Below are positions 193 through 15,138 of a DNA stretch of 22,486 bases, in pieces. A program made the translations under genes and the position numbers. The DNA lies in the IMG/VR virus record IMGVR_UViG_3300029309_000376, positions 1 to 22,486 of that record. One strand, 5' to 3'. The DNA comes from a virus. Under the pieces are notes generated by a model that worked only from the letters and a program-made list of their open reading frames with translations, had not been told where the DNA came from and did no database searches. Within the stretch, counting starts at the first letter, position 1. Every line of letters begins with the position of its first letter.

Positions 193-275
193 TTTGTTCA
201 ACTGAACTTTTTATTTGTTCAACTGAACTTTTTATTTATCCAACTGGCTTTTAATTTATCCAACTGGACTTGACA
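193..275. repeat. Four tandem ~21-bp repeats with dyad cores, operator-like array
   Basis: Four near-direct repeats start at 193, 214, 235 and 255, with a period of 21, 21 and 20 bp (about two helical turns). Copies 1 and 2 share the core GTTCAACTGAAC (196-207 and 217-228), a perfect dyad with 5-bp arms around AC. Copies 3 and 4 have the core changed to TCCA-AC-TGG(C/A) (239-248 and 259-268). In copy 4 the T-to-C change in the left arm is matched by A-to-G in the right arm, so the symmetry is kept. This is what a dimeric DNA-binding protein site looks like. Replication iterons are the alternative. Copy 4 runs into a TTGACA hexamer (270-275) that could be a -35 box. Confidence 0.75.
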
Positions 276-295
276 AAAGTTTGCAGTTTATGTCC

Positions 296-309
296 GTTCC
301 ACATGGAAC
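296..309. promoter_or_regulatory. Palindrome GTTCCA-CA-TGGAAC, probable fifth operator
   Basis: This is a perfect 6-bp inverted repeat with a CA centre, just ahead of the AGGAGG ribosome site (312-317) of the HTH gene at 323. Its TCCA/TGGA half-sites match repeats 3 and 4 of the array upstream, 39 bp centre to centre from copy 4. It lies downstream of the TTGACA at 270-275, where a bound repressor would block transcription. No convincing -10 hexamer is visible 16-18 bp after TTGACA, so the promoter itself is not proven. Confidence 0.6.
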
Positions 310-322
310 ATAGGAGGAAATA

Positions 323-535
323 ATGTCACAGAACAAAAGACTCAAAACGTATCTTGAAAACAATGGATCAATAACTGGCATGGAGGCTTGGCAGGAACTA
401 GGCATATACAGGGCTTCAGCTAGAATAAATGATCTACGACAGAGTGGTTGTGCGATAATGACTGATATGATAAAAGTCACTGACCGTTTTGGTGACGAAC
501 AGAGAGTTGCTCGATGGATACTGAAATCAGCTTGA
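323..535 (+). CDS. Small helix-turn-helix protein (HTH_39-like), candidate regulator
   Basis: This 70-aa protein has a strong AGGAGG ribosome site at 312-317, five bases before its ATG. The stretch around residues 10-45, with a G-S-I-T-G-M-E-A-W start and then LGIYRASARINDLRQSG, matches the small winged helix/HTH domain common in phages (HTH_39 type). It forms two helices that end in an Arg-rich recognition helix, followed by a beta hairpin (KVTDRFGDEQRVARWIL). It most likely binds DNA. It sits directly behind five dyad repeats, so autoregulation through those sites is a reasonable inference but not shown. Proteins of this family also occur with no known regulatory role. The 3' end overlaps the next ORF (514). 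Confidence 0.85.
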   Translation: MSQNKRLKTYLENNGSITGMEAWQELGIYRASARINDLRQSGCAIMTDMIKVTDRFGDEQRVARWILKSA

Positions 536-666
536 CTGAAGCAATAACTATCATAAAAAACCTTGCTGTAAGAATATCGGGGGTTGATGAAGATCGCCCC
601 TCATTACCCTCCGACTATCCTAGGGCTGACATAGAAGCAGCTATCAAGAGAATTGAGCGTGACTGA
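514..666 (+). CDS. 50-aa acidic protein of unknown function
   Basis: The ATG at 514 opens 50 codons to a TGA at 664-666, beginning MDTEISLTEAITIIKNL and ending AAIKRIERD. It overlaps the HTH gene by 22 bp upstream, and its TGA shares an A with the ATG of the next gene (TGATG). This makes it a plausible coupled link between its neighbours, and it fills what would otherwise be a gap in the module. It is predicted mostly helical with a Pro-rich middle (DRPSLPSDYP). The purine-rich AGAGAG 8 bases before the ATG could serve as ribosome site. No family recognised. Confidence 0.6.
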   Translation: MDTEISLTEAITIIKNLAVRISGVDEDRPSLPSDYPRADIEAAIKRIERD

Positions 667-905
667 TGAAAACTCTAGCTTTCTTGCTAGTTGTTGCGTT
701 TCAAGAAACGCCATATCAGCTTGTTTCAGACACTTCCGTAGCAGAGATATACATTCACCTCCCACATTGCGTTAGACGCGCTCAGACGCTCTCACAGGCG
801 CAGAGACACTTCGATCATGTTAAAGTTACCTGTACACCAACACTGATTGACCTTAAAGAACCTGGTTATGACGTAAGAATCATAGGAGTGAGCAATGAAC
901 GATGA
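666..905 (+). CDS. Small protein with hydrophobic N-terminus, unknown function
   Basis: This is a 79-aa ORF whose ATG overlaps the preceding TGA, so it is probably read by translational coupling. Residues 1-13 (K-T-L-A-F-L-L-V-V-A-F) look like a short export signal or membrane anchor, although the hydrophobic stretch is brief. The remainder is soluble, with Cys at about 35 and 56 and His-rich patches. It overlaps the next gene by 11 bp. No domain recognised. Its place behind an HTH gene in a run of small ORFs fits an accessory early protein. Confidence 0.6.
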   Translation: MKTLAFLLVVAFQETPYQLVSDTSVAEIYIHLPHCVRRAQTLSQAQRHFDHVKVTCTPTLIDLKEPGYDVRIIGVSNER

Positions 906-1107
906 AGACTTTGCTAGTGAGTTAATACACGCCATAGATCATTTGAGTTCAGAAATACAGAGATCGGCTGATATAATTAAAAGATCAACTGATATGAACA
1001 GTGAATTGTTTTTACGCTTGTGTGATCAGTTACAGACATTTGAGAATGCTTTGAGGGAGTTAATCGAGGAAGTAGATGAGCAGAAAAGGTTGACAGTGAA
1101 ACATTGA
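895..1107 (+). CDS. 70-aa predicted coiled-coil protein, unknown function
   Basis: The ATG at 895 is preceded by a good AGGAGTGAG site (884-892) lying inside the end of the previous gene. The 70 residues are almost all helix-forming and charged, with heptad-like hydrophobics (L-I-H-A-I-D-H-L, I-I-K-R-S, L-R-L-C-D-Q-L, F-E-N-A-L, L-I-E-E-V), which predicts a coiled coil or helical hairpin. No known motif. It is the last clear gene of the plus-strand module before the terminator at 1169-1192. Confidence 0.7.
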   Translation: MNDEDFASELIHAIDHLSSEIQRSADIIKRSTDMNSELFLRLCDQLQTFENALRELIEEVDEQKRLTVKH

Positions 1108-1116
1108 GGAATTATT

Positions 1117-1194
1117 GTGTCAGAGCATATTCATTTTCCTTTAATTTTCATGATCAATTGTTGGTTGGGGGGCTGTAACAAGCCCCTTTTTTAA
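1117..1194 (+). CDS. Possible 25-aa hydrophobic peptide running through the terminator
   Basis: A GTG at 1117 has GAGGA at 1106-1110, six bases upstream, overlapping the TGA of the preceding gene. The frame encodes 25 residues ending C-W-L-G-G-C-N-K-P-L-F and stops with TAA at 1192-1194. Residues 6-20 are hydrophobic enough for a membrane helix, with two Cys. The last third is encoded by the terminator stem and U-tract, so translation would unfold the terminator. The ribosome site is the only positive evidence; chance is a real alternative. Confidence 0.3.
   Translation: MSEHIHFPLIFMINCWLGGCNKPLF
1169..1192 (+). terminator. Intrinsic terminator ending the plus-strand module
   Basis: The perfect stem GGGGCT (1169-1174) / AGCCCC (1181-1186) with loop GTAACA is followed by six T (1187-1192). 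It works for the plus strand only: on the minus strand the stem is followed by a C/A-rich run, not T. Its U-tract overlaps the stop codon of the convergent minus-strand gene (1191-1193). Confidence 0.9.
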
Positions 1195-10273: not shown

Positions 10274-10917
10274 TAAATAGTCCTAAAAACTAACTCTTCT
10301 GGATTCTTAGCCTGATCAAATGCCGCGGCATCCGATAAAGTAACATCTGCAAGTCTAAATAGTTCAGCAGCACTGGTCCCACCTGTCTCACCCCTTTCTC
10401 TAGCTGCAAGAGCATGGGCATACTCAATTACAGGTGCTGTAGGAACAAGGATTGTGTCAGAGTCACTCGATAAATCGACTGGTCTTTTAGCTACTGTAAA
10501 AATTAACGAATAAACACCATCAGGTGTGGGATGAACATCAACCTGTGTATTTACACCATCAAACCCGTTAAATGTAAAAAATGATGGAGACCCTTTAGAT
10601 GATGTTGCAATATTTTTAAAATTCTTGAATTCGTAAGGTGTTTTGTAAGACAGTCTTTTATTTGACGTATCATTGATAACATCCAAAACAGTAGATCGAT
10701 CAGTTGCACCTGTAAGAGTATATGTAAAATCATCATCGGCTGTATTGAATGTAATATCACTTCTCAATCCTGACCAATTTACAGCATTTTCAATATAACG
10801 CTTTGATTGATTAACTAACTCACCAATCAATGCAGAGTATGTATTCTGTGATACAGAAGTTACTTCTGACTCTCTTAATCTTCGTAAAACGGCATTAACT
10901 AACTGTAAATATGTCAT
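10273..10917 (-). CDS. Head-tail adaptor (P22 gp4-like role)
   Basis: This 214-aa protein starts M-T-Y-L-Q-L-V-N-A-V-L-R-R-L-R-E, followed by helices with ELVNQSKRYIENAVNW and a beta-rich middle. This is the usual pattern of the adaptor that binds the portal and carries the tail nozzle in podovirus-like phages. The length suits the family. It overlaps the 1040-aa gene by ATGA (10914-10917) and shares TAATG with the nozzle gene, so dosage with both is probably coupled. Confidence 0.75.
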   Translation of the reverse strand: MTYLQLVNAVLRRLRESEVTSVSQNTYSALIGELVNQSKRYIENAVNWSGLRSDITFNTADDDFTYTLTGATDRSTVLDVINDTSNKRLSYKTPYEFKNFKNIATSSKGSPSFFTFNGFDGVNTQVDVHPTPDGVYSLIFTVAKRPVDLSSDSDTILVPTAPVIEYAHALAARERGETGGTSAAELFRLADVTLSDAAAFDQAKNPEELVFRTI

Positions 10918-13900
10918 CGTCTCAATCCTGTAAATAAACCTCTTGGCGTATACACAAATGGTAACATCTGTGTCGGTACAACATCTTGTATTGTTGATTT
11001 TGACATATAATCACCAAACAATGTTTCTGTTTGTAAGGGTTGTCCAAATAAACCTTGCTGTTGCCCTTGCTGCTGTCCCTGACCTTCTCCTTCACCATCG
11101 CCTTCACCAGAACCATCGCCTGATCCCGTGCCAGATCCTGTCCCCGTGCCACTACCTGTTCCTGTGCTTGTGCCTGTATCTGTGCCTTCTCCTAACCCCT
11201 GACCTTGTTCGCCACCTGCATCCTCTGTGCCTGAAGCCCCTTGACCATCAGTACCTTGACTATCAGTATCTTGACCATTAGTTTGACCACCATCAAGAGA
11301 AGAATCACCACCTGTTAATAAACCGCCACCATTGTCTCCTGACACATTATTATCAGGATCACCTTGGTTATTAGGATCGCCTTGGTTGTTTGGGTCACCC
11401 TCATTATTGGGGTCACCTTGGTTATTGCTTGGATCAGTGTCTAAGTTTGCACCATCCATGCTGCCATCATTGAATAATTCTGGAACTTCTCCAACTCTTG
11501 ATGGATCATTTGGCGCAGCATCTGCATTATCTCCTACACCATCATTGTCCGAATCAACCTGTTCGTTTGGGTCATCAGGAAACGCATCGTTTCTATCTAA
11601 GACACCATCTTTATCCCTATCACCTACGAAGGGGTCTCGATCAAACAATGTTGGTACATTATTAGAATCATTTGGAAAATCATCACTATTATCACCTATA
11701 CCATCATTATCTGTGTCAATAGTTTCATTTGAATCACTAGGAAACGCATCAGCATTGTTACCAACACCATCACCATCAGAATCTACTTGCTCAGATGGAT
11801 CATTTGGAAATGCATCCTCTGAATCTATAATTCCATCATTATCCGTGTCTAACAAAACATCTAATGGATCTGCACCACTAGGATCATCTCCAAGAGTGTC
11901 AAGAAAAGTGTCAAGATTAAATTCATCTTCAGACCCCAAAGATGGATCAATCGCTGGATCTTCTTCGACATCTGGGTCTTTTGCATCACCTTCTCCTGCT
12001 ACCCTTGAGTCCCCACCCTCAATTGCAGGATCTGGCATTCTCTTGGGATCTTGAATTACAACAACACTCTTATTTTCCCAATCAACTTCATAAATTAATC
12101 CAGTATCAGCAGACTTATCTAAATGCTCCACCCTATGAACGCCTGATTCTCCCCAAGTATCCAAATCACCTGTAACTACAACTATTTCAGCATCCAGAGC
12201 AGCATCGAGTGTCTCTCGTCTATCATCAACACGAAAATCGTTCTCGCCATCACCATCAATATCAAAATCCCTGCCTGGATAGGTTCCTCCTGTATCAACA
12301 GGCGTTCCTCCAATATCACTCCCTTGATTATCCGTTCCTTCATTTTGCCCTTGTTGATTAGTTGTATCACTGGTGCTGCGCGAAGGATCGTTAGGAAATG
12401 CATCCTGCGAATCTGGCACACCATCACCGTCACTATCTGCATTTTGACTTGTAGAGGGTGGTTGATTTTGATTTGTAGAGGGTGGCTCATAGTTGCTATT
12501 AGGAACTGTTCTAGGGCCATTCGGGGTTTGTATTATTACAGTTGGATCGGTGGTATTAGGCGAACCATTTGCGTTTTCAGCAGGTATACCCGTTGTGGCT
12601 TGAGTGCCACCAACACCACCTCCTGCATCAACCGTTTCTTCTTCTTGTTCAGGCAAAACAGGTTGATCTACTTGAGGCTCAAATGTAAACTCATTTGTTA
12701 TCGGTGGCCCTGTATCAATTTGCCCTACTATGTCGTCAACATCAGCACTTTTACCATCCGGTGCTTTAGCAATAATTGGATTACCATCACTATCAAAAAT
12801 AGTTATTACAGGTTCAATTGATTGTCCATCAGGATTTCGCTCAAATGCCGTTTTAAATCCTGACAATGCACCTACAATACCACCACCACTTATCTGGTCA
12901 GACGATAACCCAACCGAAGCTAATACCTGAGGAGGAATCATTCCTGATAAACTAGCAACGGCTGATGCCAATCCTAATATTCTCTGACCAAAACTCATCT
13001 CTGGAGCTTCTGGTACTTCAATCTTTAATAGAGAATAACTCCCAATAGGCGCATCACCACCCGTAATATCAACATATAATGTTTGGTCAATAACTTTGTC
13101 TTGAGTTATTTCACCTTTATGAGCCTTTTGTAATTGACTGTACTTTGATTCAGGCAGCTTCATGTAAAGCTGTGATTCATCATAATCAAACGGAAAGTCT
13201 TTGAGGTTAATACTTTCTTTTAATGTACGAGATAAAGGAATGCCTTTCTCATTCAGTTTATTGATAAAATCCTGATAATAAACGTCATGTTGTGTCCAAT
13301 CCCTTTGCGCTGTTTCTATACCAGCTTCATTATCACGCCAATTAGCGGCTGCATTGGCAGCACCTCTAATGCTTTTACCTGTCATTAATGAGGCTTGAGT
13401 CTTTCCCTGCAAAGAACTGATATCATTACCAAATGGTGTTTGACCTTCTACCCTAGGCGCACCAGCTTCCTGCCAATCATCCCATATCTGATTTGCATCA
13501 TTAAAACGCTGTTCAGTATCAGGGTCATTCATGTAGTTTTCAAACCACGCCCTCATACTGAAATCATCGCCTAAATCATAATCATCTAACGTGTAGTTAC
13601 TATTACGATCTAGTAAATCTTGATCCCACTGAAATTCTTGAGTTGAATTACCTGTCATCATGCCACCAGATGTAATTGGCGCACCTTCAGGAACATTATC
13701 AGGGGTTGTATTTAAAGTTTGAAAGGTTGCAGGTGTTCTAGTGTTTGGTAAAGGTTCTGCTTGATTGGGTATTACAAAATCATCAGCAGACATATTACGG
13801 GGATCAGGTATTGGCTCCCATGCCTCTCTGAAACCAAGACCTGCACCAAATGGACTAACAGATAACTTAGCTCTGTAGAATGTACCAAACCGATCTACTA

Positions 13901-14036
13901 CATCTCCAGGTTCATACGCATTAGCACGACTGTAGACAGTTGCATTGAATGGTACGGTATCCGTAGCTGCTGGTAATACACCATACAACTCTTTAGACAA
14001 TAATCCCTTGACGGGTGTGAATGTATTAAGACTCAT
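10914..14036 (-). CDS. Giant TSP3-repeat virion protein, 1040 aa
   Basis: Several regions can be seen. Residues ~30-75 (V-Y-S-R-A-N-A-Y-E-P-G-D-V-V, then G-T-F-Y-R-A and later E-A-W-E-P-I) resemble a carbohydrate-binding module of the CBM5/12 kind. Residues ~100-460 are mixed and hold one hydrophobic stretch near 350-365. Six thrombospondin type 3 style Asp-rich calcium-binding repeats (D-x-D-x-D-G, then D-A-F-P-N-D-P) occur at about 533-552 and 731-847. A (G-D-P-N-N-Q)n repeat lies at ~872-897, and a Gly/Thr/Ser then Gly/Glu/Gln low-complexity tail at ~925-998. The last ~40 residues are again ordinary. It sits just before the adaptor gene, so a virion appendage or head-tail vertex protein is likely. 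The exact role is unknown. Start: the ATG overlaps the previous TAA. Confidence 0.75.
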   Translation of the reverse strand: MSLNTFTPVKGLLSKELYGVLPAATDTVPFNATVYSRANAYEPGDVVDRFGTFYRAKLSVSPFGAGLGFREAWEPIPDPRNMSADDFVIPNQAEPLPNTRTPATFQTLNTTPDNVPEGAPITSGGMMTGNSTQEFQWDQDLLDRNSNYTLDDYDLGDDFSMRAWFENYMNDPDTEQRFNDANQIWDDWQEAGAPRVEGQTPFGNDISSLQGKTQASLMTGKSIRGAANAAANWRDNEAGIETAQRDWTQHDVYYQDFINKLNEKGIPLSRTLKESINLKDFPFDYDESQLYMKLPESKYSQLQKAHKGEITQDKVIDQTLYVDITGGDAPIGSYSLLKIEVPEAPEMSFGQRILGLASAVASLSGMIPPQVLASVGLSSDQISGGGIVGALSGFKTAFERNPDGQSIEPVITIFDSDGNPIIAKAPDGKSADVDDIVGQIDTGPPITNEFTFEPQVDQPVLPEQEEETVDAGGGVGGTQATTGIPAENANGSPNTTDPTVIIQTPNGPRTVPNSNYEPPSTNQNQPPSTSQNADSDGDGVPDSQDAFPNDPSRSTSDTTNQQGQNEGTDNQGSDIGGTPVDTGGTYPGRDFDIDGDGENDFRVDDRRETLDAALDAEIVVVTGDLDTWGESGVHRVEHLDKSADTGLIYEVDWENKSVVVIQDPKRMPDPAIEGGDSRVAGEGDAKDPDVEEDPAIDPSLGSEDEFNLDTFLDTLGDDPSGADPLDVLLDTDNDGIIDSEDAFPNDPSEQVDSDGDGVGNNADAFPSDSNETIDTDNDGIGDNSDDFPNDSNNVPTLFDRDPFVGDRDKDGVLDRNDAFPDDPNEQVDSDNDGVGDNADAAPNDPSRVGEVPELFNDGSMDGANLDTDPSNNQGDPNNEGDPNNQGDPNNQGDPDNNVSGDNGGGLLTGGDSSLDGGQTNGQDTDSQGTDGQGASGTEDAGGEQGQGLGEGTDTGTSTGTGSGTGTGSGTGSGDGSGEGDGEGEGQGQQQGQQQGLFGQPLQTETLFGDYMSKSTIQDVVPTQMLPFVYTPRGLFTGLRR
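11060..11190 (-). repeat. Low-complexity Gly-Thr/Ser and Gly-Gln/Glu coding repeat
   Basis: Within the 1040-aa gene the plus strand shows degenerate 6-bp periodicity (CCTGTG, CCATCG and CCTTCA type units) that encodes alternating Gly-Thr, Gly-Ser, Gly-Asp/Glu and then Gly-Gln runs on the minus strand. It is probably a flexible linker that changes length by slippage. Confidence 0.75.
11356..11427 (-). repeat. Four imperfect 18-bp tandem repeats encoding GDPNNQ units
   Basis: Units start at 11356, 11374, 11392 and 11410, each a variant of GGATCACCTTGGTTATTA. They encode six-residue Gly-Asp-Pro-Asn-Asn-(Gln/Glu) blocks in the 1040-aa protein. The DNA copies differ mainly at third codon positions, so the repeat is maintained at protein level. 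Confidence 0.8.
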
Positions 14037-14483: not shown

Positions 14484-14804
14484 CTATCGTCTACTCATAA
14501 ATGCTGTAGCACCAAAATACGCGGCTACAATCGATGCTTGTGCTATGTAAAATAAACCAAGAAGATCAGACAATGCCTCTACCCTTTTATCGGGCATCAT
14601 AGGTAACATCAAGAAAATAGAAAATATAATCATAGATAACATAGCTATCCATGCCATCTGCTTCTGAGAGTCTGCCTTTTCTTCTCGCAACTCTAGCTCA
14701 GTCATTTCCTGATGCCGACTTATCTCATCATCTGTTACAGTACCATCACCATCTAAATCATACTTTTCATACTTGGACTTTCTCTGTAATTTTTTATTTG
14801 CCAT
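14484..14804 (-). CDS. EF-hand membrane protein, 106 aa
   Basis: Residues 16-27 form a canonical EF-hand calcium loop (DLDGDGTVTDDE, with Asp at 16, 18 and 20 and Glu at 27). A charged helix and two predicted membrane helices (about 51-68 and 82-102) follow. The calcium loop would be on the same side as the N-terminus. Similar EF-hand plus two-TM proteins are familiar from marine phages near lysis genes, so a holin-like or membrane-sensing role is possible. I chose the ATG at 14804 (MANKK); an in-frame TTG at 14813 is an alternative and has AAGG eight bases upstream. It overlaps the nuclease gene by 11 bp. Confidence 0.75.
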   Translation of the reverse strand: MANKKLQRKSKYEKYDLDGDGTVTDDEISRHQEMTELELREEKADSQKQMAWIAMLSMIIFSIFLMLPMMPDKRVEALSDLLGLFYIAQASIVAAYFGATAFMSRR

Positions 14805-15138
14805 AGTATTCAACCGCCAAACCTTCTTTTAAAAGCATCTTGCAAATATTTACACCATCACTACTCCTAAATGGTGTTGCCAATATCCGACCATACTTAC
14901 CCTTGCCATGAGATAAAATCTCTAACGTGTCCTCACACAACTCCTTAACTCTTTCTTTGGCAATCAGACCTCGTTTTTTCTCTTCTAAGTCCCTTGTTCT
15001 TGTTTCTGGGGTGTTTATACCATATAGCCTCAATCGTTGATTAGAGAGCGTAATACCGAACCCCAGATCAATGTCTACATCAATTGTGTCTCCATCAACA
15101 ACTTTTAAGAGCTTGCACTTGTAATAATAAGGCTTCAT
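14794..15138 (-). CDS. Staphylococcal-nuclease-like (thermonuclease) protein
   Basis: This 114-aa protein has an OB-fold nuclease pattern. V-V-D-G-D-T (D15 and D17) matches the DGDT of SNase, and R-L-Y-G-I-N-T-P-E-T holds R37, T43 and E45, equal to Arg35, Thr41 and Glu43. G-K-Y-G-R supplies R84, equal to Arg87. The calcium ligand Asp40 of SNase is Asn (N42) here, a change seen in other small SNase-like proteins that may alter metal affinity. There is no signal peptide, so it acts in the cytoplasm or in the virion. It overlaps its upstream neighbour by ATGA and is followed by an EF-hand protein. Host DNA degradation is a plausible role. Confidence 0.85.
   Translation of the reverse strand: MKPYYYKCKLLKVVDGDTIDVDIDLGFGITLSNQRLRLYGINTPETRTRDLEEKKRGLIAKERVKELCEDTLEILSHGKGKYGRILATPFRSSDGVNICKMLLKEGLAVEYYGK

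Follow-up and report, generated by a model that had tools for sequence, protein, structure and literature searches.

What could a row of short palindromes do in front of a very small gene of the DNA-binding type in a marine phage? This question is raised by one end of the virus record IMGVR_UViG_3300029309_000376, whose whole stretch of 22,486 bases is referred to below as the window. Its late operon (terminase, SU10-type portal, capsid and 3TM holin) lies on the - strand, and its nearest named relatives, as judged by the portal, are the HMO-2011-type marine phages, with only about 24% identity. Within the first 1.1 kb, the + strand has a convergent set, which consists of the end of an ORF, an array of dyads, a 70-aa HTH_39 gene, three small ORFs and a terminator-like hairpin, and the array is placed in the 136-bp intergenic gap upstream of the HTH_39 gene (Table 1). 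The early region of the phage is outside the window contig. From the sequence, we consider it somewhat probable that the phased four-dyad array is bound by a dimeric regulator, which would control the short + strand operon headed by the HTH_39 gene.

Table 1. Positions of the features at the array locus in the window, with their state in the sister contig (L001/L227) where compared
Feature	Position	Strand	Sequence or match	Remarks
Dyad site 1	196..207		GTTCA-AC-TGAAC (GTTCAACTGAAC)	5/5 symmetric pairs; identical in L001
Dyad site 2	217..228		GTTCA-AC-TGAAC (GTTCAACTGAAC)	5/5 symmetric pairs; identical in L001
Dyad site 3	238..249		ATCCA-AC-TGGCT (ATCCAACTGGCT)	4/5 symmetric pairs; ATCCA-AC-TGGAT in L001, 5/5
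Dyad site 4	258..269		ATCCA-AC-TGGAC (ATCCAACTGGAC)	4/5 symmetric pairs; TCCA/TGGA core kept in L001
Imperfect inverted repeat	259..307	+	TCCA-ac-TGGA-ctt-GACA-N15-TGTC-cgt-TCCA-ca-TGGA	strong leader hairpin in L001 only
Doubtful fifth palindrome	296..309		GTTCCA-CA-TGGAAC (GTTCCACATGGAAC)	asymmetric in L001 (GTTCTACATGGAAC)
HTH_39 winged-helix protein, 70 aa	323..535	+	PF14090 match	Shine-Dalgarno AGGAGG upstream; candidate ligand
Three small ORFs (p50, p79, p70; 50, 79, 70 aa)	514..1107	+	no family found	same putative operon; conserved in L227
Terminator-like hairpin with T-run	1167..1188	+		end of operon

The first-pass annotation of this DNA had described four repeats spaced by about 21 bp, and they are borne out. 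The centres of the 12-bp dyads are at 201.5, 222.5, 243.5 and 263.5, that is, 21, 21 and 20 bp apart, and Tandem Repeats Finder gives a period of 21 with 3.9 copies and a score of 104, the highest in the window. When the array region is shifted by 21 bp against itself, 35 of 40 columns agree, compared with a maximum of 25 over 100 mononucleotide shuffles. The repeats are genuine, and no product of chance. They are not dispersed over the rest of the genome; at this locus several similar dyads occur at regular spacing within an intergenic gap, as is typical of operator arrays. The half-site TYCANNTGRA, described earlier as common to the repeats, is present in copies 1, 2 and 4 of the window, but not in copy 3, which ends in TGGC.

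Besides the window, the only contig found to carry the locus is a 16.1-kb sister contig (L001), about 95% identical in DNA. All four dyad copies are kept in it, at exactly 21, 21 and 21 bp, and most changes between the two genomes lie between the sites, with an indel between sites 3 and 4. A coding explanation of the period (21 bp is 7 codons) was rejected: the array of L001 does contain one frame that stays open throughout, but in the window this frame is shifted by the 20-bp spacing. Then, could a 21-bp unit with a chance palindrome simply have been multiplied by slippage, without any function? The 21-mers of copies 1 and 2 are identical and the 20-mers of copies 3 and 4 nearly so, as after fresh duplication, the T-rich linkers are prone to slippage, and the distribution of the array is very narrow. 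However, the array occupies the only gap of any size, in front of an operon, its four copies are retained in the second genome with the changes mostly in the linkers, and the differences between the copy types are compensated on both sides. Copy 3 of L001 (ATCCAACTGGAT) differs from copies 1 and 2 at four bases, which form two compensated symmetric pairs, and in a simulation four random substitutions kept all five pairs in 0.5-1.6% of the runs, depending on the transition bias. It should be noted that the resulting p of about 0.005-0.016 is generous, because this one comparison of sites in two genomes was chosen after the data had been seen. Since the differences in copy 3 of L001 form compensated pairs, the sequence favours dimer sites over plain tandem duplication, and a neutral origin of the array appears unlikely.

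The change on both arms of copy 4, from TTCA/TGAA to TCCA/TGGA, had already been pointed out in the first-pass annotation; it is correct, but weak when taken alone, with a chance of about 5-8% for two random substitutions. The wider claim made there, that the dyads are dimer sites whose symmetry is selected, holds in part, as does the covariation of half-sites in a related genome, which was named there as a check. The two compensated pairs in copy 3 of L001 are consistent with both, but one symmetric pair is broken in copy 3 of the window (TGGC), the outer pair of copy 4 is missing in both genomes, and the covariation is based on very few changes, as the array is carried by two closely similar genomes only. 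With these few changes, the symmetry is likely to be under selection.

The perfect palindrome at 296-309, previously counted as a fifth copy, is doubtful, and we do not count it as one. It is broken in L001 and 39 bp away from copy 4, and its size class (6-bp arms with a 2-bp spacer) has nine members in the window including itself, with about 5.5 expected by simple arithmetic. It constitutes the right arm of the inverted repeat at 259-307, whose left arm is site 4. As RNA, this repeat forms in L001 a 57-nt hairpin of -21.2 kcal/mol (z -4.3), and the whole L001 leader also has a z of -4.3, while the transcript of the window folds differently (z -1.6), the large hairpin being broken by three bases that differ on one arm and are unmatched on the other. 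The array and the inverted repeat could accordingly be read as an mRNA leader element, which would fold just upstream of the Shine-Dalgarno sequence and influence the translation of the HTH_39 message, or else its processing or stability. For the part with sites 1 and 2, z is -2.7 (window) and -3.4 (L001), and compensated changes in the dyads would preserve RNA pairing too. However, tandem palindromes of any kind fold well, so that the z-scores are not discriminating, and the loop of a single dyad is too short for all the pairs to form. An even spacing of 21 bp is not needed by RNA hairpins, a search of Rfam gave no match, and the large hairpin is confined to L001, which together make the leader element quite unlikely.

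For an array bound by a dimeric regulator, the spacing has a simple meaning. Because they are two helical turns apart, the four dyads would lie on one face of the DNA, and this placement would therefore suit dimers bound side by side. A dimeric regulator would fill the four dyads in this way; binding, dimer stoichiometry and cooperative filling are all what we infer. In operator arrays of the lambda OR/OL type, too, several similar dyads stand in tandem between genes, and a small HTH gene follows. The window array resembles them in this general layout, and it differs from them in its four near-identical sites, their uniform two-turn spacing and the lack of a recognisable promoter pair. The array is an ordinary kind of gene-control element.

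The unit under control would comprise HTH_39, a PAPS-reductase-like gene (in L001 only), p50, p79, p70 and the terminator. Site 4 would lie approximately at the -35 region of a promoter with its -10 near 288-293. A search covering promoters of the sigma-70 type found no consensus -35/-10 pair in the gap, either in the window or in L001, and TTGACA at 270-275 was rejected as a -35 box, for it is GGGACA-like in L001 and no -10 is present at the proper spacing. The dyads may serve an activator of a weak promoter downstream of them, or they may act as an operator. Since no consensus pair was found there and site 4 is near the putative -35, repression is no more likely than activation. A lysis switch, another suggestion of the first-pass annotation, is unlikely, as the GTA-type 3TM holin belongs to the late operon on the opposite strand, and an M15 peptidase gene is found just upstream of the terminase gene in a close relative.

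The PAPS-reductase-like gene (255 aa; PF01507, E 7e-10) is located between HTH_39 and p50 in L001/L227 and is absent from the window. The difference was noted at 472-1252 in L227 and 500-540 in the window, and ATGGATACTGAA is found at both of its boundaries in L227. Consequently, the gene was likely gained or lost via direct repeats. The same difference alters the stop of the HTH gene (ILK followed by the stop versus ILKSA followed by the stop).

Which protein, then, would bind the array? The 70-aa protein encoded downstream matches PF14090 (HTH_39) over residues 2-68, with a score of 62.9 bits (gathering cut-off 21.3; E 2.5e-17). Its AlphaFold2 model (pLDDT 93.6) shows helices followed by a two-stranded wing, namely a winged helix, and the best Foldseek matches of the model include winged-helix domains, although they are weak (E 1e-3 to 1e-1). 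A sequence search of the PDB with the HTH_39 profile gave no match. Judging from the model, it is plausible that the protein binds DNA. The earlier proposal that it is the ligand is consistent with this type of protein; on the other hand, a comparable array was found upstream of HTH_39 at none of 27 other loci (19 viral, Itty13, CSP3, ctQRb9 and 5 alphaproteobacterial), some of which are near-duplicates of each other. The five alphaproteobacterial loci are those of 13 matches among 337 genomes for which the upstream DNA could be placed. Relatives that keep the HTH gene but lack the repeats, which had been named beforehand as speaking against the proposal, are therefore almost all that is seen, L001 being the only one with the array. 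However, the proteins at the loci without the array are at most about 56% identical to that of the window, so the operators there could differ. Autoregulation by the HTH_39 protein itself is possible but somewhat doubtful, and the regulator may alternatively be a different protein of the phage or of its host, with its gene beyond the window, for example in the early region.

It had also been suggested that the repeats are iterons, the direct repeats found at a replication origin. In this reading, which takes iteron plasmids as its model, the gene for an initiator or accessory protein of the winged-helix type would be preceded by an operator in the form of an inverted repeat. The oriS/repE region of the F plasmid, for example, comprises four iterons and a Rep gene downstream, with inverted repeats placed ahead of the reading frame (PMC13028717), and four direct repeats, an inverted repeat and a downstream gene of the DNA-binding type are all present in the window, as are AT-rich linkers. 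In addition, the HTH_39 genes of other phages are often beside replication or recombination genes. In the Bcep22-like phage JC1, the HTH_39 protein gp18, described as of unknown function, precedes the replication genes (PMC9144972). Both proteins belong to PF14090, and each is a small winged-helix protein heading a gene cluster, but the HTH_39 gene of the window stands ahead of small ORFs without a family and has a phased array upstream. Compared with the F plasmid, the adjacent gene encodes a single HTH_39 domain of 70 aa and no Rep-type protein, the inverted repeat is not conserved in L001, the repeat units are themselves palindromic, no sign of a replication start is seen, and this part of the window contains no replication gene. 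The GC skew, proposed earlier as a check, does change sign near 1-2 kb, but just where the gene direction changes, and it is consequently uninformative on an origin. A DnaA-box reading of TTATCCAAC was rejected, as copies 1 and 2 do not fit. The idea of an origin is thus not supported, its clues being the gene neighbourhoods of HTH_39 elsewhere and the architecture of the locus, and we give it a slim chance.

Repeats of another kind were noted in the terminase relative G018, where the gap between the early and late operons holds four degenerate TGTGGATAACT units (DnaA-box-like TTATCCACA when read in reverse), with CTTAAG-type repeats nearby (L233, 11719-11759 and about 12059-12145). The repeats in this gap are a candidate origin or early/late control region.

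How widespread is the array? Among the 25 records searched (L001 and 24 terminase-related contigs), HTH_39 and the array are found in L001 only. The 24 contigs, three with 97-99% and the others with about 72-77% terminase identity, have neither, which is soft evidence, many of them being fragments. With ORF1 and the 960-aa protein as baits, one near-identical contig each was retrieved, L001 and L226, and L226 ends before the array. A blastn search of 150-330 against annotated phages gave no match. Two TYCAACTGRA sites at 21 bp occur in 34 stretches of IMG/VR and in 110 stretches of a set with one genome per bacterial or archaeal species; apart from L001, the matches inspected (all the viral and some of the bacterial ones) are coding-like, for example Ser-Thr-Gly or Gln-rich stretches, and no operator arrays were found among them. 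In a looser three-site scan of IMG/VR, the full three-site stretches among the matches listed are coding-like open-frame repeats or an unrelated minisatellite (L475). Within these collections, the array is narrow in distribution and lineage-restricted, being shared with one other closely related phage. A phage-wide regulon was considered and rejected: a single TCCACCTGGA precedes the late operon of L236/L384, but its counterpart in L385 is TACAACTAGA, so that the site is probably there by chance.

Some differences in gene content were observed elsewhere in these phages. The close relative L022 has an extra ORF-bearing stretch (about 200-740) between the peptidase gene and the terminase gene, which L236 lacks, and from the sequences this is a further gene gain or loss. 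The window encodes at 10914-14036 a protein of 1040 aa whose numerous D-x-D-x-D-G repeats (SDGDGVPDSQDAFPNDPS-like) resemble calcium-binding thrombospondin type 3 repeats; a Pfam search at E 0.01 gave no match for it, and the region is not the same in the window and L227. A staphylococcal-nuclease-like gene (PF00565, E 4.7e-10) in the stretch 14484-15138 has as its neighbour the gene of a protein of 109 aa, in which the loop DLDGDGTVTDDE is EF-hand-like.

The interest of the array would come from the identity of its ligand. It is conceivable, though rather unlikely, that HTH_39 proteins act as dimeric regulators with sequence specificity, or as accessory proteins at origins, and that in the array a natural binding site of such a protein has become visible for a first time. 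If HTH_39 is not the binder, the array would be one more small, lineage-restricted operator array. If it is, a family that Pfam names only by its fold would gain a defined DNA target and a role that can be put to the test.
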